64,000 nt of DNA from Streptomyces macrolidinus (GTDB lineage Bacteria; Actinomycetota; Actinomycetes; Streptomycetales; Streptomycetaceae). How positions within the stretch are numbered: the first letter of the stretch is position 1; each line of letters opens with the position of its first letter. The notes beneath the pieces are model-generated. The model saw only the letters and a program-made list of their open reading frames with translations, had not been told where the DNA came from and did no database searches. Shown here one piece after another: positions 4,397 through 18,827 of the stretch. Position numbers and translations under genes: made by a program. The stretch is from assembly GCF_023887685.1 (NCBI RefSeq), contig NZ_JAMWMR010000027.1:1-64000 (forward strand), written 5' to 3'.

Positions 4397-5557
4397 GTGC
4401 CGTACGACGACGCTCCGCTGCTCGCGGATCTCCTGCCGTGGTCCGTCGCATCCGTGCGGCCGGGCCGTGCCTGGCCGTGCGCACCCGACGCGGAGGCGCT
4501 CAGCGCCCGTTGGGACGCTCTGCTGCGGGCCGAGGGGCCCGCGCGGGAGGCGCTGTTCGAGCCCACGCGTGCGCGCACGCTGCGTACGTCGGTCGGCCAG
4601 TTGCCGGGACGGACCGGGGGCACGGGGCGGCTGCTGCGCGCCTCGGGCCCCTGTGCGCGGCCCGTCCGGGTGCTGCACGGGCCGTTCGACGAGCAGTGGT
4701 TGATCCCGGACGCCCGGCTGATCGACGCCGCGCGCCCGGAGCTGTGGCGGGTGGCGGACGCGCACCAGATCTTCGCCGTGGAGACGGCAGCCGGTGCTCC
4801 GGGCCCGTGCCTGCTGGTGACGTCGCTGCTGCCGACACTCAGGAGCGGCCGGGTCCGCCCGCTGTACCGGCGCCCCGTCGGCGCGGAACCGAACCTGGCG
4901 CCGGGCCTGTTGACGTATCTGGCGGCCCGGCTCGGGCAGCGTCCCGAGCCGGTGGACGTCCTCGCCTGGAGCGTGGCGACCGTACGATCCGGACCCGGTG
5001 GCCTCGTCGTCCCGCTCACCGCCGACGGTGAACTGTGGGCGCAGGGCGTCGAGTTGGGGCGTCGGATGCTGTGGCTGATGCGCCGGGACGGTGAGCGTCC
5101 CAAGCTGCCCGGCGGCCGTCGCCCCTACGTGCGCGCGCCGTTGCCCGCACGCCCCGTGACGCTCCACTACGACCGGGACGAGGAGGTGCTCCATCTCGAC
5201 GGGGGCCGTATCTCCCCGGTGCCGCGGCGGGCCTGGGACTTCGAGGCGGGTGGGGTCCGGGTGCTGGAGGAGTGGCTCGCGGCCCGGACCGCCGAGCCGG
5301 AGCCCGGCACGCTGGCGGCGATCCGCCCTGCCGCCTGGCCGCAGACCTGGACGTCCGAACTGCTGGAACTGATCACGGTCCTGGCACTGCTGGCGGAACT
5401 CGCGCCACAGCAAGTCGAGTTGGAGTCGACAGCCCTCGTCACGGCCGAGGAGCTGCGCACGGCGGGTGTGCTCCCGGTACCGGAGTGGTCGCGCCGCCCG
5501 GCCTCGGTGCTGGACCACCACGAGGAGGGACCCGAGGGGCAGTTCGCGTTGCTCTAG
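4397..5557 (+). CDS. Orphan type-ISP restriction enzyme C-terminal-like protein
   Basis: The protein is 386 residues and resembles the C-terminal target-recognition part of type ISP restriction-modification enzymes. Stand-alone Streptomyces proteins of this size usually carry that name. I see no methyltransferase motifs (no NPPY-type motif, no FxGxG) and no helicase or nuclease motifs, so it cannot be a complete restriction enzyme. Segments such as HGPFDEQWLIPDARLIDAAR and VTLHYDRDEEVLHLDGG look like the conserved family blocks. The start is the in-frame GTG at 4397: a -10-like TACGAT at 4384-4389 ends 7 bases before it, which would make a leaderless mRNA and would rule out the ATG at 4388. 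It follows the GntR gene. Its real function is unknown. Confidence 0.65.
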   Translation: MPYDDAPLLADLLPWSVASVRPGRAWPCAPDAEALSARWDALLRAEGPAREALFEPTRARTLRTSVGQLPGRTGGTGRLLRASGPCARPVRVLHGPFDEQWLIPDARLIDAARPELWRVADAHQIFAVETAAGAPGPCLLVTSLLPTLRSGRVRPLYRRPVGAEPNLAPGLLTYLAARLGQRPEPVDVLAWSVATVRSGPGGLVVPLTADGELWAQGVELGRRMLWLMRRDGERPKLPGGRRPYVRAPLPARPVTLHYDRDEEVLHLDGGRISPVPRRAWDFEAGGVRVLEEWLAARTAEPEPGTLAAIRPAAWPQTWTSELLELITVLALLAELAPQQVELESTALVTAEELRTAGVLPVPEWSRRPASVLDHHEEGPEGQFALL

Positions 5558-8853: not shown

Positions 8854-9224
8854 GGGAATCTCCTTTTGGCAGGAACGGTGCGCAACTGATGTACCAGCTA
8901 CGCGCGTTGACCGGAAGTGTCCATGCCAAAGATTTCGGCGCCCCGCCCGATCTGTTACTCCCGCGTCCACCACTCGTTCGATTCAGCCGCAGAGGTGTGC
9001 TCCAACCCCTTGAATTCCTGGTCAGGTTGGATCACTCTTCTTCTCAGCCCTGAGCGGAAGACCGCGCTCCGGGCCTCTTGGCATTGACCCTCGACACACT
9101 CCCGGGAGCCCATGGCAAGACCAAGCCAAGAACACGTAAGTGCGACATCTGTGTCTTGACGGACCCCTGTCGCCTGCGCGACATTGAAGCCCGGCATCCG
9201 GCGCTTCGGGGGGCAAAGTCGCCC
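8854..9224. other. Divergent intergenic region
   Basis: The 371 bases between the SGNH hydrolase and the small membrane protein should hold both promoters. Overlapping frames on both strands look non-coding. A TTGACG near 9158 is a possible -35 element for the rightward gene, but I see no convincing matching -10. Confidence 0.45.
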
Positions 9225-9647
9225 ATGCAGACCTTACGGATCAAGCCATCTTCACCAGGTGAGGACGGGCGGCCGGGACAGGGTTCGGGGAGGGACCTGT
9301 TACCGCTGCTCATGGGCGCGGCCGTGGCGGTCGCGGCGGTCGGCGCGCTCCTCGCGCTCGGCGACCGACACACGCCGCTGCGGGGCCCGTTCACCTTGTT
9401 CTTCCTGCTCGCCGCGCCGGCGACGGCGATCGGAGCCGCGCTGCGGGGCCTGGATCCCCTCGCCCGCGCGGTGGTGTCCGTCGCGGGGGCGCTCGCGGTC
9501 GATCTGCTCGTCGCCCAGGGGATGTTGGCCGTGCACCGCTGGTCGGTGCGGGGCGGCGTCGTCGCGGTGACCGTGCTCAGCTCCCTCGTTCTCCTGCTGG
9601 TACTGGTACGGCACCGGCGCGGCCGTACGGCGAGAAGACGGGCCTGA
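9225..9647 (+). CDS. Small integral membrane protein
   Basis: This 140-residue protein has about 35 hydrophilic N-terminal residues followed by four hydrophobic segments (for example LLPLLMGAAVAVAAVGALLA, FTLFFLLAAPATAIGAAL, VVSVAGALAVDLLVAQGML and VVAVTVLSSLVLLLVLVRHR) and a basic tail that should be cytoplasmic. No family is recognised. The ATG at 9225 is the first reasonable start, with a G-rich stretch about 13 bases before it; an upstream in-frame ATG at 9078 gives a non-domain-like extension. It ends 4 bases before the acyltransferase gene, so it is the first gene of the polysaccharide operon and may be a membrane partner of the enzymes that follow. Confidence 0.7.
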   Translation: MQTLRIKPSSPGEDGRPGQGSGRDLLPLLMGAAVAVAAVGALLALGDRHTPLRGPFTLFFLLAAPATAIGAALRGLDPLARAVVSVAGALAVDLLVAQGMLAVHRWSVRGGVVAVTVLSSLVLLLVLVRHRRGRTARRRA

Positions 9648-9651
9648 CAAC

Positions 9652-10746
9652 GTGGACATCAGGGTGTTCCGTCCCGGCGACCTCAGCTTTGCCGACCGGG
9701 CGGCGTGGACGGCCTTGCAGGCGAAGGCCCACCTTCATGGTTCGCCCGAACTGGCGAACCCCTTCCTGGCCCCCGAGTTCACGCTCGCCGTGGGCCGGGC
9801 CAGACGCGGGACCCGGATCGCGGTCGTCCACGAGGGCGGTGAGCCCGCCGCGTTCTTCCCGTTCCAGAGAACCGCCACCGGGGTCGGCCGGGCCGTCGGC
9901 CTCGGGGTCTCCGACTGCCAAGGCCTCGTGCACCGCCCCGGCTTCACCTGGGACGCCCAGGAACTGCTGCGCGCCTGCGGCCTCGCCGTCTGGGAGTTCG
10001 ACCATCTCGCGGAAGGCCAGCGGCCGTTCGAGGCGTCGGCCTCCGGCACCTTCCCGTCCCCGGTCATGGACGTCGACCAGGGCTACGACACCTATCTGCG
10101 TCACCTCCGCGAACGCTCCCCGAAGTTCACCCGCACCACCCTCGCCAAGGAGCGGAAATTAGGGCGGGACATCGGCGAAGTCCGCTACGTCCACGACGAG
10201 CGCGACCAGACCGCCCTGCACACGCTGATGGCCTGGAAGTCCGCGCAGTACCGCAGGACCGGGCGCAGCGACCGCTTCGCGCACCCCTGGATCAACGAGC
10301 TGACGCACCAGCTCTTCCACACCCGCTCCGAGCCGTTCGCGGGCATCCTCTCGGTGCTCTACGCGGGCGACCGGCCGATCGCCGCGCACTTCGGACTGCG
10401 CACCGAGCGGGTGCTCGCCTGCTGGTTCCCCGCGTACGACACGGAGTTCGCGAAGTACTCCCCCGGCCTTGTCCTGCATCTGCGCATGGCCGAGGCGGCT
10501 GCCGCCGACGGCATCGCGTATCTGGACCTCGGACGGGGCCAGAAGGAATACAAGGACTCCCTGAAGACACGGGAGATCACCGTGTCCGAGGGATGGGTGA
10601 CCCGCCGTCACCCGGTGGCGTACGGCCACCGGGCGCGGCGCGCCCCGGTCCGGGCGCTGCGCAACGCGGTGCTGGCGCGACCGGAGCTGTTCGAACCGGC
10701 CGATCGGCTGCTCAAACGGATGGGGCGAATCCGCTCCAGGGGTTGA
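9652..10746 (+). CDS. GNAT acyltransferase, BioF2/CelD-like
   Basis: This 364-residue enzyme belongs to the BioF2-like acetyltransferase family (CelD/BcsL-type), which is common in polysaccharide loci. The C-terminal GNAT core spans about residues 160-320 and includes AAHFGLRTERVLACWFPAYD and AYLDLGRGQKEYKDSLK, the conserved family block. The GTG at 9652 starts 4 bases after the membrane-protein stop without its own clear ribosome site, which suggests translational coupling. It probably acylates a sugar nucleotide or a lipid-linked glycan in the cytoplasm. The substrate cannot be read from sequence. Confidence 0.88.
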   Translation: MDIRVFRPGDLSFADRAAWTALQAKAHLHGSPELANPFLAPEFTLAVGRARRGTRIAVVHEGGEPAAFFPFQRTATGVGRAVGLGVSDCQGLVHRPGFTWDAQELLRACGLAVWEFDHLAEGQRPFEASASGTFPSPVMDVDQGYDTYLRHLRERSPKFTRTTLAKERKLGRDIGEVRYVHDERDQTALHTLMAWKSAQYRRTGRSDRFAHPWINELTHQLFHTRSEPFAGILSVLYAGDRPIAAHFGLRTERVLACWFPAYDTEFAKYSPGLVLHLRMAEAAAADGIAYLDLGRGQKEYKDSLKTREITVSEGWVTRRHPVAYGHRARRAPVRALRNAVLARPELFEPADRLLKRMGRIRSRG

Positions 10747-11112
10747 GTTACGGCCAAATCCACGAAACCGAGGGAGACGTCTCAGGGCTTGCCATAAAGA
10801 CTCAACCGTCAATACCGTCATACTTCTACTCGCATCGGTCCACCCTCGTGCGGCTCCAGGGGAGGGCTCAGGGACCGCGGTGATCCGGTGCGGAGCGCGG
10901 TAGGGGGGTGCCGTGCTCGGTGGACGACTTCTGTCCTGCCGGGCCGTGCCGCGCGACCGGCTGCCGAACTCCTGGCGGACGGACAGCGATTCCAGCTCAT
11001 CCGGCATGCCCGCAGACCACGGCAGGCCCGGATGAGAACCCCCCTTTCGAACCGGACACACAGCCGGACCGCCCAGGGGCGGGCGGTCCACCGGACGAGA
11101 GGGACCAGACTC
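10747..11112. other. Intergenic region inside polysaccharide locus
   Basis: These 366 bases separate the acyltransferase from the first glycosyltransferase. The first third (about 10745-10840) is much AT-richer than its surroundings and probably holds a promoter for the downstream operon. The rest is GC-rich with short non-coding frames. The length leaves room for a structured leader RNA, but I recognise no riboswitch class. Confidence 0.45.
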
Positions 11113-11931
11113 ATGAGTTCTGCTCTGCACTCGGCTGTATCCGCACACGATCCGCTCATACCGGGGAAGTACCGGCCCGTCTCCTCGCACCTGGCCATCG
11201 CACCGCCGGTGAGCGTGGTGATCCCCGCCATGAACGAGGCGGAGAACCTTCCCTACGTCTTCAAGACGCTGCCCGACTGGATCCACGAAGTGGTGCTGGT
11301 CGACGGCAACTCCACCGACGACACCGTCGAGGTCGCCCGCGGGCTGTGGCCGGGGGTGAAGGTCGTCGAGCAGCGCGGCAGGGGCAAGGGCGACGCCCTG
11401 ATCACCGGCTTCGAGGCCTGCACCGGGGACATCATCGTGATGGTCGACGCGGACGGCTCGGCGGACGGCCAGGAGATCGTCAGCTATGTCTCCGCGCTGG
11501 TGTCGGGCGCCGACTTCGCGAAGGGCTCACGGTTCGCGAACGGCGGCGGCACCTCCGACATGACACCGATCCGCAAGCTCGGCAACCGTGTGCTGTGCGG
11601 ACTGGTCAACGCCAAGTTCGGCGCCCGCTACACCGATCTGTGCTACGGCTACAACGCGTTCTGGCGGAAGTGCCTGGACGAGATCGACCTCGACTGCACG
11701 GGCTTCGAGGTCGAGACGCTCATGAACATCCGGGTGGTCAAGGCCGGGCTCAAGGTGCAGGAGATACCGAGCCACGAGTATCTGCGCATCCACGGCACGA
11801 GCAATCTGCGCGCGGTGCACGACGGGTTCAGGGTGCTCAAGGTGATCCTCCAGGAGCGCTCCAACCGGCGTGCGCTGCGCCGCCGTCCGCACACGGTGGC
11901 GCTCGACTCCGCGCGAGGAGAGGCGTCTTGA
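11113..11931 (+). CDS. Glycosyltransferase family 2 (DPM1-like)
   Basis: This 272-residue GT2 enzyme has a GT-A fold. The nucleotide-binding start VSVVIPAMNEAENLPYVFKT is at about residues 35-54, the DXD-type metal site is VDADGS near 118, and VDGNSTDDT near 67 follows the family pattern. It resembles dolichyl- or polyprenyl-phosphate hexosyltransferases, which load a sugar onto a lipid carrier at the inner face of the membrane. No transmembrane helix is present. The ATG at 11113 has GAGGGA 10 bases upstream; frames reaching further upstream are not domain-like. It overlaps the next gene by 4 bases (TTGA). Likely role: making lipid-linked sugar donors for the membrane protein at 13716. Confidence 0.92.
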   Translation: MSSALHSAVSAHDPLIPGKYRPVSSHLAIAPPVSVVIPAMNEAENLPYVFKTLPDWIHEVVLVDGNSTDDTVEVARGLWPGVKVVEQRGRGKGDALITGFEACTGDIIVMVDADGSADGQEIVSYVSALVSGADFAKGSRFANGGGTSDMTPIRKLGNRVLCGLVNAKFGARYTDLCYGYNAFWRKCLDEIDLDCTGFEVETLMNIRVVKAGLKVQEIPSHEYLRIHGTSNLRAVHDGFRVLKVILQERSNRRALRRRPHTVALDSARGEAS

Positions 11932-12926
11932 GCATCCCGGACATCTCCGTGGTGATCTGCGTGTACACCGAGGACCGCTGGGAGGACATCCTCGCGGCGG
12001 TCGCCTCGGTACGGGCGCAGTCCCGCCCGGCGCTGGAGACGCTGCTGGTCGTGGACCACAACGAGGCCCTGCTGGAACGGCTGAGCGCACAGTACAAGGA
12101 GGCGGCCGACCAGGTCCGGGTGCTCGCCAACGCGGGCCCCCGCGGCCTGTCGGCGGGCCGCAACACCGGGATCGCCGCCTCGTACGGGGAGATCATCGCG
12201 TTCCTCGACGACGACGCCGTGGCCGAGCGGGACTGGCTGCAGCACTTCGCGGCCGGGTACGCGGACCCCCGGGTGATGGCCGTCGGCGGCCGTACGGAGC
12301 CGGTCTGGGCGTCGGGCCGCCGCCCGGCCTGGTTCCCGGAGGAGTTCGACTGGGTGGTGGGCTGCACCTACAAGGGGCTGCCGCCCGGCCGGGTCCGGGT
12401 GCGCAACGTCCTCGGCGGCAACGCCTCCTTCCGCCGCGACGCCTTCGAGGCGGCGGGCGGCTTCGCCACCGGCATCGGACGCGACGGCGACAAGCGCCCG
12501 CTGGGCGGCGAGGAGACGGAGCTGTGCATCCGCCTCACCCGGGCCCGGCCCGACGCGATCCTGCTCATCGACGACCGCGCGGTGATCCACCACCGGGTGC
12601 CGGCGCCGCGCGAGCACTTCGCGTACTTCCGTACCCGCACCTATGCCGAGGGGCTCTCCAAGGCCCGCGTGGCCCGGAGCGTCGGCTCCGGCAAGGGGCT
12701 CGAGTCGGAGCGCCGCTACACCACCCGGGTCCTGCCGGCCGGGGTCGCCCGCGGGCTGCGCGACGCCCTGCTGGCCCGCCCCGGCGGAGCGGGCCGGGCG
12801 GGCGCGATCGTCGCCGGGGTGCTCTCGGCGGCGGGCGGCTACCTGGCCGGAAGCCTCCGCACCCGCCCACGCGGTGCCTCGTTCACGGTGGTGGAGATCC
12901 CGGACCGCGAGGAGGGCGCCGTATGA
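11928..12926 (+). CDS. Glycosyltransferase family 2
   Basis: This 332-residue GT2 enzyme begins with ISVVICVYTEDRWEDILAAV and has FLDDDA as its metal site near residue 88, followed by GGNASFRRDAFEAAGGF and GGEETELCIRL, the acceptor-side ED-type block. A C-terminal helical segment (about 265-310) may touch the membrane. It probably adds sugars to the repeat unit in the cytoplasm. The TTG at 11928-11930 is chosen because AGGAGAGG lies directly upstream and the TTG overlaps the previous stop. The stop overlaps the deacetylase ATG (ATGA). The three genes are therefore tightly coupled. Confidence 0.92.
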   Translation: MSIPDISVVICVYTEDRWEDILAAVASVRAQSRPALETLLVVDHNEALLERLSAQYKEAADQVRVLANAGPRGLSAGRNTGIAASYGEIIAFLDDDAVAERDWLQHFAAGYADPRVMAVGGRTEPVWASGRRPAWFPEEFDWVVGCTYKGLPPGRVRVRNVLGGNASFRRDAFEAAGGFATGIGRDGDKRPLGGEETELCIRLTRARPDAILLIDDRAVIHHRVPAPREHFAYFRTRTYAEGLSKARVARSVGSGKGLESERRYTTRVLPAGVARGLRDALLARPGGAGRAGAIVAGVLSAAGGYLAGSLRTRPRGASFTVVEIPDREEGAV

Positions 12927-13723
12927 ACGACCCGGCGGTGCCCATCCTCATGTACCACTCGGTGGCGACGGACCCCACCCCGGCGACCCGCGCCCTGTCG
13001 GTGACACCCGAGGCCTTCGCGGCGCAGGTGGCGCTGCTCGCGGTCCTGGGGTGCACGCCCGTCACCACCGCGACACTGGCGCGTAGTTGGCGGGAGGGTG
13101 CCGCGCTGCCCGAGCGGCCCGTCCTCATCACCTTCGACGACGGCTACGAGGGCGTGCACCGCCACGCCCTGCCCGCGCTCGCCCGGCACTCCTTCGCCGC
13201 CACCCTGTTCGTGTCCACGGGATGGATCAGGGGCGACCACGACACCGGTGGCGGCCTGGACACCATGCTCGACTGGGACCAGATCCGCGAACTGGCCGCG
13301 TCCGGCGTCGAGATCGGCGGACACAGCCACACCCATCCGCAGCTCGACCAACTCACCGACGACGCGCTCGCGGACGAGCTGCGCCACTGCACGGAGATCA
13401 TCACCGACGAACTGGGCACCCGCCCGGTCTCGTTCGCCTACCCCTACGGCTACTCCAACCGCCGGGTGCGACAGTCGGTGCGCCAGGCGGGCTACCACCA
13501 GTCGCTCGCCGTCGGCAACGCGCTCGCGCACCGCCGCCAGGGCCCCTACGCGCTGCGCCGGGTCACCGTGCGCCGCACCACCGGGCTCGCGGAGTTCGAA
13601 CGGCTCGTCCAGGGCCGGGCGATCGCCCGCGCCTTCGCCAGGGACCGCGTCCTGACCAAGGGGTACGCCATGGTCCGAAGAGCACGACAGGTTCGCCGGA
13701 AGGCCATCGCTTCCCGTGTCTGA
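12923..13723 (+). CDS. Polysaccharide deacetylase (NodB/CE4)
   Basis: This 266-residue enzyme has a NodB homology domain. The catalytic base motif ITFDDGYEGV is near residue 72, the metal-binding HSHTHPQLD near 135, and FAYPYGYSN near 173. CE4 enzymes remove N-acetyl groups from GlcNAc-type polymers. The N-terminus (MNDPAVPILMYHSVATDPTP) is the usual opening of the PgaB-type deacetylase domain. I see no signal peptide, so it may act inside the cell or be exported by another route. It overlaps the GT2 gene by 4 bases and the flippase gene by 8. Its presence suggests that the polymer contains N-acetylated amino sugars. Confidence 0.92.
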   Translation: MNDPAVPILMYHSVATDPTPATRALSVTPEAFAAQVALLAVLGCTPVTTATLARSWREGAALPERPVLITFDDGYEGVHRHALPALARHSFAATLFVSTGWIRGDHDTGGGLDTMLDWDQIRELAASGVEIGGHSHTHPQLDQLTDDALADELRHCTEIITDELGTRPVSFAYPYGYSNRRVRQSVRQAGYHQSLAVGNALAHRRQGPYALRRVTVRRTTGLAEFERLVQGRAIARAFARDRVLTKGYAMVRRARQVRRKAIASRV

Positions 13724-16700
13724 CACGACCACAGCCCAGGCCGCGTCCTCCACGACCGCGGCACCCGAGCGGCCCGGCCGCCGGTTGCGCCTGCCCGGCC
13801 TGGGCGGGAGCGGCGGCGGCAGCCCGCTCTTCCGCAACGCCTACGCGCTGATGCTCAACACCGGCGTCTCGGCGGTGCTCGGCCTCGGCTACTGGCTGGT
13901 CGCGGCCCGCTACTACTCCGCCGACGCGGTGGGCCAGGGCTCGGCGGCGATCGCCGCGATGAAGTTCCTCGCCGGACTCACCGCGGTGACACTGACCGGG
14001 GCCCTGGCCCGCTTCATCCCGGTCTCGGGGCGCGCCACCGGACGCCTCATCTCCCGTACGTACGCGGTCAGTTCGCTGGTCGTGGCGGTCGGCGCGGGCG
14101 TCTTCCTGGTGACGCTGGACCACTGGGGGCCGTCGTACCGGTTCCTGCACGGCACGGTCAACGGGCTCGGCTTCGTCGTGGCCGTCATCGCCTGGAACCT
14201 GCTCACGCTCCAGGACGGGGTGCTGACCGGGCTGCGCAGCGCGCTGTGGGTCCCGGTCGGCAACACCGTCTTCTCCGGGGTGAAGCTGGCGCTGCTCGTC
14301 GGGCTCGCTGTGGCCATCCCGACGACCGGTGTCTTCGTCTCCTGGGTCGCGGCCATCGCGACGTCCGTCCTGCCGCTCGGCTGGCTGGTGTTCCGGCGGC
14401 TGGTCCCCCGGCACGTCAAGGCGACCGAGCGGCACGCGAGGCCGCCGTCGCTGAAGGAGATCGGCCGGTTCCTGGCCGGTGACTGCACCGGCTCGCTGTT
14501 CTCGCTCGCCGTGGTCTACCTGGTCCCGGTGATCGTGGCCGCGCAGGTCAGCGCCGCGGACAACGCCTACTTCTACATCGCCACCACCATCGGCGGCACG
14601 GTCGACCTGCTGGCCATCAACATGGGCGCCTCGCTCACCGTCGAGGGCGCGCACGACCCGACACAACTGGCCGCCAACACACGGGCCGCGCTCAAGCGCA
14701 TGGCCCGGATCATGCTCCCGGTGTGCGCGGTGCTGTTCCTCGGCGCACCGTTCATCCTGCATGTCTTCGGCGCGGGTTACGCGCACGCGGCGACCCCGCT
14801 GCTGCGCTGGTTCGCGGTCGGCGCGCTGCTGCGGGTCGTCATCGAGACGTACTTCGCGGTGCTGCGCGCCCAGAGCCGTACCTCCGGACTCGCCTGGCTG
14901 CAGGGCCTGTTGTGCGTCCTGGTGCTCGGGCTGACCCTGCTGCTGCTCCCCCGCATAGGACTGACCGGCGCGGGCGTCGCGGAGGTCGCGAGCCTCGCGG
15001 TGATCGCGTCGATCGCCGCGCCGAGGCTGTTCAGGGTCGTACGCGGCGCCCCACCGCGCGCGCTGCCCGAGAACATGGCACCGGACGGAGACCTGGCCGA
15101 CCTGGGGACGCGCGAGGTCCCCGTACCGAGGCACGTCCCGTCCTGGGCCGAGGGCACGAGCGACGCGTACGGCAAGGGCGACACGGACAACGCGTACGGC
15201 AAGAGCGACACGGACGACGCAGAGGACACAGGCGACACGGGCGATACGGGCGATACGGGCGACACGGGTGACACGCGCGCCGAACCGGTGCGTCCCCCGC
15301 GCTCCTCCGGCCGTCGCGGTGTCGTGCTTCTCGCCTGTCTGCTCGTCACCGCCCTGCTCCTCTACTGGGTGCCCGCGCTCGCGCTGAACGACAGTTCCCT
15401 CGACCGGATGGGCGGCCTCGGGCTGATCTCGGTGCTGCCGCCGCCGACCCTCGTCGGGGCCGCGCTGCTGATCGTGGTCTTCGCGGCGCTGCTGTGGCGC
15501 GTCCACGAGCACAAGGGGCTGCTGCTGGTCACCCTGCTCGCCACCGTCGTGTCGCTGCACGCGCTGCCCGCGGTGATCGAGACCGAGCCGCGGTTCGCGA
15601 CGGCCTGGCAGCACCTGGGCTTCCTCGACTACATCGACCGCACCGGGGCGGCCGTACCGGACCTGGACGCCCGCTGGAGCTGGCCGGGCTTCTTCGCGGC
15701 GGCGGCGTTCGTCGCGAAGGCCTGCGGGGTGAGCGACCTCACCGAGGTCATCCGCTGGTGGCCGCTGACCATGCAACTGCTCTATCTGGCACCGATGTTC
15801 CTGCTGCTGCGCTCGCTGCGGGCGGGCTGGCGGGCCAAGTGGACCGGCCTGTGGCTCTTCGTGCTCAGCGGCTGGGTCGGCCAGGACTACTTCTCCCCGC
15901 AGGGGTTCACGTATCTGTTCTATCTGGTCTTCGTGGCGATCCTGCTGGTGTGGTTCCGTGCCCCGCACCTGATCTGGACGAAGGCCCGCCCCGGCGAGGC
16001 GGAACCGGAGCAGGCCGGAAGCGGTCAACGGGCCGTCCTGCTGGCGCTGTTGATCGCCCTGTACGCGGCGAGCGTGCCGGCCCACCAGCTCACCCCGTTC
16101 GTGATGCTGGGCGTGCTCGCGGCGCTCGTGCTGATCCGCCGCTGCGAACTGCGCGGCCTGCCCGTCCTGTTCGCGGTGCTGGTCGCGTTCTGGCTCGGCT
16201 TCATGGCCGAGCCGTACTGGTCAGGGCACTTCGACGAACTCTTCGGCGGCGTCGGCGGGGTGGGCAGCAATGTGTCGACCTCGGTCTCCGGGCGCATCCA
16301 GGGCGGCGACTCCACCCACAAGCTCGTGCTCTACGCGCGGGTGCTGCTCGCCGGGACGGTCATGGCGCTCGCCTGCTGGGGCTGGTGGCGGCGGCGCGAC
16401 CACCGGTACCGCGAACGCTCGCTGCTCGTGCTCACCTTCGTGCCGTTCCTGGGCTTCGGGATGCAGTCGTACGGCGGCGAAATGGCCCTGCGGGTCTTCA
16501 TGTTCGCGCTGCCGGGCGCGGCCCTGCTCGCCGCGCTCGCCCTCTTCCCGCGGACCGGCGTCACGGCGAAGGAGCGGGACAAGGACCGGGTGAGCCTCGC
16601 CCCGGTCGCGGCCCTCCTGGCGGGCCTGGTGCTGATGGGCGGCTTCCTGGTGGTCCGCTGGGGCAACGAGCCGTTCGAACGGATCCGTCCGGGCGAGGTC

Positions 16701-17324
16701 ACGGCCATGGACTACGTGTACGCGCACGACGATCCGACCGTGCGGCTGCTGTGGCTGAGCAACGACCCGGCCACCAATGTGACGCCGGCGATGCCCTGGG
16801 GCGCGAAGGACATGGAGAAGGTGCAGTACGTACCGACCCTCGCGCCCCCCGATCCGGTCCTGGTGTCGGACCTGGTCGCCTCGCTCGAGGACGCGGGCCC
16901 CCACTCCTACCTCATGGTCAACCGCAGCCAGGTGACGTATCTCCAGATGGACGTCGGCTACTCGGCGACCTGGCGGACCCGTCTCCTGCGGAACCTGGAC
17001 GCCCGTCCGGAGCTGAAGAAGGTCTTCGCCAACGACGACGCGACCCTGTACACGCTGCGCGAGCCGCCGAGCGGCGCGGTCCCGCAGCCGCGTCCGGGTC
17101 CGATCGGACCGCGGGTGACCTGGACGCCGTGGTCGGTCGCCGGGGGGCTCGCTGCCGTGGCGCTGGTCCTGATCCTCACCACGCGCGAGATCGTACGGGT
17201 CGCGGTGCGCCCGAGCGCGCGGCATCTGCGGTGGCTGCGGGGGAGCTTCTGGTTCTCGCTGCCGCTGCTGGCGGTGCTGCTGGCCTCGCTGGTGCAGCGG
17301 TTCCTGACGATGGGCAAGGGCTGA
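13716..17324 (+). CDS. Fused Wzx-type flippase and polytopic GT-C-like protein
   Basis: This very large membrane protein has 1202 residues in two halves. Residues 1-470 resemble polysaccharide exporters of the MOP superfamily (Wzx-like) with about 12 membrane segments, such as AYALMLNTGVSAVLGLGYWL and LLAINMGASLTVEGAHDP. A soluble Asp/Gly/Thr-rich linker at about 470-530 carries nine-residue and DTG repeats. Residues 535-1202 form a second polytopic half with at least ten further helices and a C-terminal soluble loop, resembling GT-C glycosyltransferases or polymerases. The normal Wzx length is 400-500 residues, so this is a fusion. The GTG at 13716 overlaps the deacetylase stop. I infer that it flips and extends or polymerises the lipid-linked unit made by the upstream genes. 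Confidence 0.82.
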   Translation: MSDTTTAQAASSTTAAPERPGRRLRLPGLGGSGGGSPLFRNAYALMLNTGVSAVLGLGYWLVAARYYSADAVGQGSAAIAAMKFLAGLTAVTLTGALARFIPVSGRATGRLISRTYAVSSLVVAVGAGVFLVTLDHWGPSYRFLHGTVNGLGFVVAVIAWNLLTLQDGVLTGLRSALWVPVGNTVFSGVKLALLVGLAVAIPTTGVFVSWVAAIATSVLPLGWLVFRRLVPRHVKATERHARPPSLKEIGRFLAGDCTGSLFSLAVVYLVPVIVAAQVSAADNAYFYIATTIGGTVDLLAINMGASLTVEGAHDPTQLAANTRAALKRMARIMLPVCAVLFLGAPFILHVFGAGYAHAATPLLRWFAVGALLRVVIETYFAVLRAQSRTSGLAWLQGLLCVLVLGLTLLLLPRIGLTGAGVAEVASLAVIASIAAPRLFRVVRGAPPRALPENMAPDGDLADLGTREVPVPRHVPSWAEGTSDAYGKGDTDNAYGKSDTDDAEDTGDTGDTGDTGDTGDTRAEPVRPPRSSGRRGVVLLACLLVTALLLYWVPALALNDSSLDRMGGLGLISVLPPPTLVGAALLIVVFAALLWRVHEHKGLLLVTLLATVVSLHALPAVIETEPRFATAWQHLGFLDYIDRTGAAVPDLDARWSWPGFFAAAAFVAKACGVSDLTEVIRWWPLTMQLLYLAPMFLLLRSLRAGWRAKWTGLWLFVLSGWVGQDYFSPQGFTYLFYLVFVAILLVWFRAPHLIWTKARPGEAEPEQAGSGQRAVLLALLIALYAASVPAHQLTPFVMLGVLAALVLIRRCELRGLPVLFAVLVAFWLGFMAEPYWSGHFDELFGGVGGVGSNVSTSVSGRIQGGDSTHKLVLYARVLLAGTVMALACWGWWRRRDHRYRERSLLVLTFVPFLGFGMQSYGGEMALRVFMFALPGAALLAALALFPRTGVTAKERDKDRVSLAPVAALLAGLVLMGGFLVVRWGNEPFERIRPGEVTAMDYVYAHDDPTVRLLWLSNDPATNVTPAMPWGAKDMEKVQYVPTLAPPDPVLVSDLVASLEDAGPHSYLMVNRSQVTYLQMDVGYSATWRTRLLRNLDARPELKKVFANDDATLYTLREPPSGAVPQPRPGPIGPRVTWTPWSVAGGLAAVALVLILTTREIVRVAVRPSARHLRWLRGSFWFSLPLLAVLLASLVQRFLTMGKG
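15166..15275 (+). repeat. In-frame minisatellites in the fusion linker
   Basis: Two kinds of tandem repeat lie side by side. At 15166-15219 a 27-bp unit occurs twice, encoding the nine-residue repeats DAYGKGDTD and NAYGKSDTD. At 15225-15275 a 9-bp unit of the form GAYACGGGY occurs about 5.7 times, encoding DTG repeats. Both unit lengths are multiples of three, so copy-number change would alter linker length without breaking the frame. Confidence 0.85.
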
Positions 17325-17399
17325 CCCGCGCACGACGGGCGCGACGGGCGTACGGATATACGAATGCCGGGGCGTACGGGCGTACGGGCGTGAAGTGGC

Positions 17400-18827
17400 T
17401 CAGCGCGTCAGCCACTTCACCTCGTACGCCTTCATGGCGAACCGCTTGCCGTCGATCCGCGCGCTGATCGGCCGGTCGAGGGTGTTCACCACGAGGACCG
17501 TCCTGTCGGTGGCGAGGACCCGTACGTTGGGGACGTCGTCCTCGGCGACGGACACGGTCCGGTACGTGCTGCCGGGCGGGAACTCCTTGCCGAAGCGGGA
17601 GATCAGGTCGTACAGGGGCAGCGCCCGGCCGCCGTCGGCGCTGTCGGTCGAGGTCCACAGACAGCCGGGGCAGTCGGGGCCCTCGCGTTCCTCCGGGTTC
17701 CAGTAGAAGCCGGAGGAGGCGCCGCCCTCGACCATGGCGATCATCCCGGTGGCCTGCACGGCGACGCGGTGGTTCTCGCTCCAGCCCTTGCGGTCGTCGT
17801 TGTCGTCGGCGGGCTCGACGTAGTACTCGGCCCACCACAGCGGCAGGTCACCGATCCGCTTCCGTACCCACGCGCCGACGTCGGTGAGCTTGTCGGTGGC
17901 CGTGAACTCGTCGGGCAGCAGCTCGTCGTCCTTGGTGTAGCTGGAGCCGTCCACGACCACGAAGTCGGCACCCGCCTTGTGCCGGTTCCAGTAGTCGAAG
18001 GCGTCGAGGACCCGCTGGTCCATGGCGCCCCAGGGACCGCGCGGGCGCGCCGCGGCGTTCTGCTCCCCCGGGCCGACGCTGTCCATGACGAGGTACGGCC
18101 CGCCGACCATGATCTTGTCGTCGACCTGTTTCAGCGCCTTGTACACAAGGTTGTACAACCGGGTGTACCCCTCGTAGTCCCAGCGGCCCTCGGCGTTGTT
18201 CCAGAAGCCCTTGAACTCGTTCCAGACGACGAAGTGGCGTACGTCCGGATAGCGCCTGGCCACCGTCGCGGCGAGGGCGGCGTAGTCCTTGTAGTGGTCG
18301 GGGGTGGGGGCGGTCTCCAGGGCGGACTGGCTCCAGTCGGTGTTCGCGTCGCCCGGCGTGCCGCCCTTCATCCAGTCGGGGGCGCAGCACAAGGTCACGA
18401 CGGGGGTGCCGCCGGACGCCCGGACGAAGTCGATCCGGCGGTCCATCTCCTCGAAGTCGTAACGGCCCTTGACCGGTTCGGGGTTGCCCGCGCCCCAGCC
18501 CATGATGTGCTGGTTCTGCGGCAGCCCCGCCCGCGAGAGCAGCCCTTCCACCCGTGCGACGGCCTTCGAGCTGCCCTGGTCGGCGCTGTACTGGGTGTGG
18601 GTGAAGCCCCAGCCGACATCCGGGGTCGGTGCCCCGCGCGGGGTGGCGGGCGTGCCGTGCACCCGGCCGCCGTCGCGGGTGGTGCCCGCGTCACCGGAGC
18701 CGCTGTCCGGCAGGGTGTTCATCAAGGTCGCGAGCAGGGCCAGTACGGCCGCGGTCGCACCGAGCAGTGCGGTGAGAGGCCACCGCCGTGCCCGCCGCGC
18801 CTCTGAATTCCCCCCATGACGTCGCAT
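17400..18827 (-). CDS. Membrane-anchored GH39-like glycoside hydrolase
   Basis: This 475-residue protein starts with a basic stretch and one hydrophobic helix (WPLTALLGATAAVLALLATL, about residues 16-36), a signal anchor or uncleaved signal. The rest is a TIM-barrel hydrolase of GH39/clan GH-A type. FVVWNEFKGFWN near residue 205 supplies the acid/base Glu and LWWAEYYVEP near 335 the likely nucleophile Glu. A small beta domain closes the protein (VPNVRVLATDRTVLVVNTLD). It converges on the flippase fusion with only 75 bases between the stops, so it probably trims or recycles the same extracellular polymer. The ATG at 18827 is chosen to start just before the signal anchor; no strong ribosome site is seen. 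Confidence 0.85.
   Translation of the reverse strand: MRRHGGNSEARRARRWPLTALLGATAAVLALLATLMNTLPDSGSGDAGTTRDGGRVHGTPATPRGAPTPDVGWGFTHTQYSADQGSSKAVARVEGLLSRAGLPQNQHIMGWGAGNPEPVKGRYDFEEMDRRIDFVRASGGTPVVTLCCAPDWMKGGTPGDANTDWSQSALETAPTPDHYKDYAALAATVARRYPDVRHFVVWNEFKGFWNNAEGRWDYEGYTRLYNLVYKALKQVDDKIMVGGPYLVMDSVGPGEQNAAARPRGPWGAMDQRVLDAFDYWNRHKAGADFVVVDGSSYTKDDELLPDEFTATDKLTDVGAWVRKRIGDLPLWWAEYYVEPADDNDDRKGWSENHRVAVQATGMIAMVEGGASSGFYWNPEEREGPDCPGCLWTSTDSADGGRALPLYDLISRFGKEFPPGSTYRTVSVAEDDVPNVRVLATDRTVLVVNTLDRPISARIDGKRFAMKAYEVKWLTR

Follow-up and report, generated by a model that had tools for sequence, protein, structure and literature searches.

We have examined a stretch of 64,000 nucleotides of the Streptomyces macrolidinus genome (contig NZ_JAMWMR010000027.1, positions 1 to 64,000, hereafter the window) and focussed on seven neighbouring genes, here called A to G, that appear to form a surface-glycan locus. 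Six of them lie on the forward strand. A (9225-9647) encodes a small membrane protein of 140 amino acids, recognized by its reading frame and hydropathy, with no family match. B (9652-10746) is a BioF2/FemAB-like GNAT acyltransferase (Acetyltransf_6, PF13480, E 4.7e-42). C (11113-11931) and D (11925-12926) are both glycosyltransferases of family 2 (GT2, Glycos_transf_2 in Pfam), the former resembling by homology dolichol-phosphate mannose synthase (DPMS) and AglJ, polyprenyl-phosphate sugar synthases, and a likely initiator, the latter AglG-like (NF041394, E 1.6e-65) and likely to transfer the second sugar. E (12923-13723) is a polysaccharide deacetylase of carbohydrate esterase family 4 (CE4; Polysacc_deac_1, PF01522, E 3.1e-30), and F (13716-17324) a two-part fusion protein of 1202 amino acids, delimited by its reading frame and by structure models. 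Convergent to them on the reverse strand is G (17400-18827), a glycoside hydrolase similar to family 39 (GH39, PF01229) whose N-terminus holds a membrane anchor or signal. A preliminary description of this DNA had listed the same seven genes with overlaps of 4-8 bases, and the reading frames and starts bear it out at every coordinate, with overlaps of 7 bases between C and D, 4 between D and E and 8 between E and F. It had also stressed what is missing, and among A-G we found no phosphoglycosyltransferase, Wzz/Wzc or cellulose- or poly-N-acetylglucosamine (PNAG)-type synthase family above its curated cut-off. The roles that it had assigned to the set (synthesis, modification, export and trimming) agree with the family and fold matches described below. 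Neither A nor F had a Pfam match at 0.1 or better.

The most unusual member of the set is F. Its first half (residues 1-460, positions 13716-15096) is joined by a low-complexity linker with GDT repeats (approximately residues 461-526, 15097-15293) to a second half (residues 527-1202, 15294-17324). The first half, modelled from an alignment with 59 relatives (predicted local distance difference test, pLDDT, 88.6), is predicted to be a flippase of the MOP superfamily. The MOP fold spans the entire domain, and the best matches of the model are the lipid III flippase WzxE (Z 31.4, root-mean-square deviation, rmsd, 3.6 over 390 residues) and the lipid II flippase MurJ (Z 30.8, rmsd 2.9 over 386 residues). 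Polysacc_synt (PF01943) was matched by 40 of 60 relatives of this half, the best at 3.2e-10, but not by the half from the window itself at 0.1 or better, and a sequence search of the PDB with profiles of both halves gave no match. F is thus genuinely two-part, with a first half that folds like WzxE and MurJ, as the preliminary description had suspected when it spoke of a fused flippase.

The second half, modelled from an alignment with 80 relatives (pLDDT 92.2), is by its predicted fold a membrane glycosyltransferase of the GT-C type, nearest to oligosaccharyltransferases (OSTs), with no recognizable Wzy. The best fold matches were yeast STT3 (Z 19.4, rmsd 5.8 over 429 residues) and AglB (Z 18.0, rmsd 4.9 over 434), followed by ArnT (Z 15.6), PMT (15.1) and PglB (14.9), with ALG12, AftA and Emb also found. 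The first 40 entries listed were all GT-C enzymes or complexes containing one (Z 19.4 to 10.5), and the next one, unrelated, had a Z of only 7.0. The family is as yet unnamed: a sample of 11 of its members matched no model of Pfam or NCBIfam, and no Wzy family was matched by the second half in the window or in its relatives. It has its own conserved motifs (W-G-QDYF-SPQ, HQLTP and YGGE) and invariant polar residues (Q723, D724, Y725, Q729, H790, Y919, E922 and R926 of F), and the WWD motif of OSTs is absent from all 81 sequences. The concern raised beforehand that this half might be a known, unrelated transporter can be set aside by the GT-C fold. The preliminary description had also proposed transport and polymerisation in a single polypeptide. 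Transport is borne out by the MOP fold of the first half, but polymerisation cannot be kept as it was stated, since with a GT-C fold near OSTs it is only one option besides transfer to a wall polymer or to a protein.

The preliminary description had noted the lack of a phosphoglycosyltransferase initiator. This is right for phosphoglycosyltransferases only, because C is a likely initiator by homology. Among solved structures its closest match was the dolichol-phosphate mannose synthase 5mlz (E 6.6e-20) and among curated families AglJ (TIGR04182, E 9e-43), and its DAD motif is conserved, with both aspartates of the DxD signature (D112 and D114) invariant. AglJ was matched by all 20 relatives of C that we compared from Actinomycetota and Chloroflexota, and AglG, the curated family closest to D, by all 19 relatives of D, and no other family gave any of them a better E-value. 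Both proteins score below the respective equivalog cut-offs (146.7 vs. 325 bits for C and 221.4 vs. 440 bits for D), so that they should be regarded as relatives of AglJ and AglG and not as members. In Haloferax, AglJ and AglG place the first sugars on a dolichol phosphate, which is then flipped and used by AglB (PMC3871713), and a DPMS-like GT2 of Haloarcula contributes to the synthesis of an exopolysaccharide (PMC9943897). By analogy of sequence, C is likely a polyprenyl-monophosphate sugar synthase that initiates on the lipid carrier, assembly probably starts on polyprenyl monophosphate, and D likely adds a second sugar onto the lipid-linked first one.

The deacetylase E scores 105 bits against PF01522 (cut-off 23.1), its CE4 metal and base residues (D72, D73, H134 and H138) are at least 95% conserved, and its relatives are of the PgaB/IcaB type. 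By a crude hydropathy test it has no evident signal peptide, and therefore it is probably cytoplasmic and acts before flipping. Its presence hints at an N-acetylated sugar, and the amino-sugar glycan suggested in the preliminary description stays a possible product. The hydrolase G scores 29.3 bits against PF01229 (cut-off 26), with both GH39 catalytic glutamates (E204 and E334) conserved; it resembles GH39 xylosidases and, weakly, PslG (E 0.015). Five Streptomyces loci near that of the window (L107, L109, L112, L114 and L125) have no acyltransferase gene B. In L112, the nearest relative, a short 3' remnant of the gene can still be read (5120-5260), which points to a recent deletion and to variation of the glycan from strain to strain. 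We therefore regard B as a strain-variable decoration gene, and acylation cannot be essential to the pathway given that B is deleted in some close relatives. The protein A has four hydrophobic segments, relatives in 45 loci and a possible role as an accessory subunit. In one actinomycete (L041:10742-12667) several extra helices at the N-terminus of the GT-C protein look by eye like A, a hint that A may be a partner of the GT-C protein.

Do these genes belong together? A scan of named genomes provided 80 loci, 59 of them with nearly full flanks, including 18 from Streptomycetaceae and 26 from Streptosporangiaceae; since their ranking followed similarity to the query, frequencies among them are biased. 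The order A-B-C-D-E-F plus a convergent GH39 gene is kept in both families, and among the 33 loci complete for the eight components, 31 have the order B<C<E<Fc on one strand with the GH39 gene convergent. We also counted, by hand, orthologues of F (approximately 60% identity or more) and of G (55% or more) in 150 Streptomyces genomes. F was found in 53 and G in the identical 53, neighbouring and convergent wherever both share one contig (Fisher p about 4e-40, an overstatement given the shared ancestry of the genomes). One genome, G380, retains nothing but fragments of both, and another, G408, has a more distant relative of G (49%) and no F. Co-occurrence of the genes in other genomes had been set beforehand as a test of the locus, and they do co-occur. 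A chance neighbourhood can be rejected by the conserved gene order together with the co-occurrence of F and G. We also rejected the lipase, kinase, AAA and DUF72 neighbours as members of the system: they flank the locus in Streptomyces and are unmatched beside the Streptosporangiaceae loci, a weak kinase match near some of the latter being the sole exception.

Further away, eight loci of Chloroflexota have C (7/8), D (6/8) and the flippase (5/8) near a GT-C gene, and neither A nor B was found in them. C, D, the flippase and the GT-C protein thus make up the core of the system, with A, B, E and G as actinomycete additions or specialisations. The class-wide search was made with a single-sequence query. 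The fused form of F was found in Streptomycetaceae, in Herbidospora and Microtetraspora and in single loci of Frankiales, Pseudonocardiaceae and Thermomonosporaceae, and in most Streptosporangiaceae flippase and GT-C protein are two adjacent genes. An artefact of assembly or a frameshift can be discarded as the origin of the fusion, which recurs in more than 20 named loci; moreover, the two halves share one open frame in the majority of the 53 Streptomyces genomes. S. himastatinicus (L089) does have a frame break. In a tree of the GT-C sequences, where the nearest named relatives of the window sequence are from Streptomyces, the fused state costs two changes, and a single early fusion later split once or two fusions fit these sequences equally well. 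Two Streptosporangiaceae loci (L054:14579-16893 and L091:19585-21812) extend further, to another FemAB-like acyltransferase and to a protein that was named by eye as DegT/aminotransferase-like and may make an amino sugar.

Besides its genes the locus has two conserved non-coding stretches. In an alignment of the upstream region the block just before C was almost invariant. A structured region conserved there (11038-11121, forward strand) contains a hairpin (11042-11103) in which CCCUUUCG pairs with CGAGAGGG and covers the ribosome-binding site of C, GAGAGGG (11097-11103). It is more stable than expected by chance (z -3.5; 200 shuffles gave nothing of equal stability). In an alignment of 46 distinct sequences that was fitted to the model, 99.0% of the cells were paired and six of the eight inner pairs showed compensatory, two-sided changes; none of 500 shuffles reached the observed values and controls slid along the alignment dropped to 42-57%. 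A separate, independent alignment of 19 rows gave the same structure, with three two-sided compensatory pairs. The outer helix is supported by conservation and energy and not by covariation, because it hardly varies. Rfam gave no match to this RNA; its sole hit, on the opposite strand, was at the level of chance (E 0.18, under the gathering score). Of other genomic copies of half of the motif, the best one had no second half to pair with and was taken as chance. Among the loci searched the RNA is restricted to Streptomycetaceae, and a covariance model applied to 61 Streptomyces genomes found it in 31, with a single strong copy in each. The hairpin probably gates translation from C onward, and we consider the leader RNA a candidate translational switch or thermosensor. 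The second stretch is a promoter or leader block upstream of A (9155-9224, forward strand), CTTGAC ... ACATTGAAGCCCGGCATCCGGCGC ... AAAGTCGCC or, in its short form, CTTGAC ... ACATTGAAGCCCGGCATCCGG, which is near-invariant in 10 Streptomyces loci. Its core motif has its only exact genomic copy here and its -10 element is unlike the usual consensus.

The distribution of the RNA led to a second version of the system. An orthologue of C was found in exactly those 31 of the 61 Streptomyces genomes that have the leader RNA, directly downstream of it, and of these 22 have F and nine do not. The six sites inspected among the nine have the same lipase (and kinase, where in range) and AAA neighbours and keep C-D-E and the leader RNA, without A, B, F and G. 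All nine have an unlinked flippase instead, about 46-58% identical, and in three of them (G304, G309 and G328) we located a second locus, distant from C-D-E, with the flippase, a relative of the GT-C protein, a CE4 enzyme, a GT2 and an acyltransferase (L174-L179 and L180-L182 make up this split arrangement). The remaining 30 genomes have no such flippase, with one weak match in G336. In other words, C, the leader RNA and the flippase, fused or unlinked, share exactly the same 31 genomes (Fisher p 4e-18 for C and flippase, the 61 genomes being related by descent). Along similar lines, genomes of the F type (53) and of the split type (21) did not overlap among the 150 (hypergeometric 4e-5). This pattern supports a single pathway in which flippase and transferase may be encoded in cis or in trans. 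Kin of the DegT/aminotransferase-like protein also stand beside the flippase in Streptomyces second loci. One genome with the fused system, G356, additionally has an unfused set (L183) with its own GH39 gene by the relatives of E, D, flippase and GT-C protein, which suggests parallel glycans in one strain.

Taken together, we find it rather probable that these genes serve to make an envelope glycan and that a polyprenyl monophosphate is the carrier in this pathway. C would load the first sugar onto undecaprenyl phosphate and D would attach the second. E would deacetylate the lipid-linked intermediate in the cytoplasm and B, in many strains, would acylate it. The flippase half of F would then turn the lipid-linked oligosaccharide outward. 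There the GT-C half would move the glycan off its lipid phosphate and onto an external acceptor, for which a surface polysaccharide in the course of growth or a wall polymer is the most likely candidate, and the anchored G would trim or release the glycan. The hairpin over the ribosome-binding site of C would probably gate translation of the genes from C on. A more ambitious version, which we put forward tentatively and would not be surprised to see fail, is that a flippase and an OST-like GT-C enzyme act in one polypeptide, so that the flipping of an oligosaccharide linked to polyprenyl monophosphate is coupled to its transfer. Bacteria would then have a further way of assembling glycans besides Wzx/Wzy, ABC transport and synthases, parallel to archaeal Agl, with an undescribed GT-C family and, in Streptomycetaceae, an RNA switch of its own.

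Several points weigh against the pathway as drawn. The sugars added by C and D cannot be assigned, because of their scores under the AglJ and AglG cut-offs, nor can the class of acceptor be read from the sequence, because the GT-C half has no WWD motif. The lipid substrate of the modelled flippase could be a phosphate or a pyrophosphate. The GT-C relative of the two-locus species is approximately 33% identical and may act differently, and shared descent overstates the co-occurrence p-values.

The alternative that survives best, although we think it unlikely, is protein glycosylation, a bacterial parallel to Agl in which the GT-C half, like an OST, would transfer the glycan as a whole from its lipid to proteins that are secreted. 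The closest folds, STT3 and AglB, and the resemblance of C and D to AglJ and AglG would fit well. However, the missing WWD motif would be unexpected in such an enzyme, the locus encodes no candidate acceptor protein, and a dedicated GH39 hydrolase suits a polysaccharide better. Still less probable is the route of the preliminary description, a classical Wzx/Wzy exopolysaccharide with the second half of F as a Wzy-type polymerase and a phosphoglycosyltransferase provided from elsewhere. The first half of F is Wzx-like, a trimming hydrolase is present, and other actinomycete Wzx clusters also do without a nearby Wzz, for example imp of Actinoplanes, whose ImpE is Alg6/Alg8-like (PMC12691653). 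Nevertheless, the GT-C half is nearest to OSTs and ArnT and matches no polymerase family, none of A-G is an initiating phosphoglycosyltransferase, and every complete locus has the DPMS-like C. Finally, the system might add a single sugar to teichoic acid or a different wall polymer outside the cell, in the GtrA/GT-C style, and D, E and B would then all work on one donor. This follows a known three-part logic of DPMS-like donor enzyme, flippase and GT-C protein (PMC13390465), but seems very improbable to us with a D in every complete locus, a hydrolase present and a flippase of the MOP type and not GtrA.

We found no description of this locus in the literature on Streptomyces and glycan enzymes, which is weak evidence as subscription papers were poorly covered; together with its co-conservation, this supports the earlier suggestion of an undescribed surface-glycan locus. 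The locus comes closest to archaeal Agl glycosylation, to the glycosylation of wall polymers by GtrA/GT-C systems and to Actinoplanes imp (PMC12691653, PMC13390465). With haloarchaeal N-glycosylation (AglJ, AglG, Agl15/AglR and AglB) it shares an AglJ-like followed by an AglG-like GT2, a flippase and a GT-C enzyme near AglB/STT3. It differs in being bacterial, in the fusion of flippase and GT-C enzyme, in the lack of WWD, in the scores under the AglJ and AglG cut-offs and in its additional deacetylase, acyltransferase and GH39 protein. The imp cluster of Actinoplanes missouriensis, with the hydrolases GimA and GimB, also combines a Wzx-like protein, an Alg6/Alg8-like membrane protein (ImpE) and a neighbouring glycoside hydrolase (PMC12691653), but has GT4 enzymes and one GT2, a GH5 in place of GH39 and no deacetylase among the listed products. 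Systems of the GtrA/GtrB type share DPMS-like donor synthesis, a flippase and a GT-C transferase with the present locus, in which, however, the flippase is of the MOP type and not GtrA, the GT2 enzymes are two and there are additional genes for modification. As in Psl, where PslG is the hydrolase, a GH39 protein goes together with the enzymes that make its likely substrate, although the resemblance to PslG is weak and no other gene of the locus was matched to Psl. The Streptomyces surface glycans made by MatAB, which produces poly-N-acetylglucosamine (PMC5972031), and by CslA/GlxA come from different, synthase-type loci, while no synthase family is above cut-off here. Each part is thus of a known kind, and the novelty lies in the way they are combined, in the fusion, in a GT-C family that has no name yet and in the leader RNA.

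If this interpretation is right, many filamentous actinomycetes, antibiotic producers included, would have an apparently undescribed surface glycan made via a route like that of archaeal glycosylation. The natural fusion of flippase and transferase offers a handle on the physical coupling of flipping and transfer, its GT-C half marks a widespread family without a curated model, and the leader RNA is a concrete candidate regulatory element.

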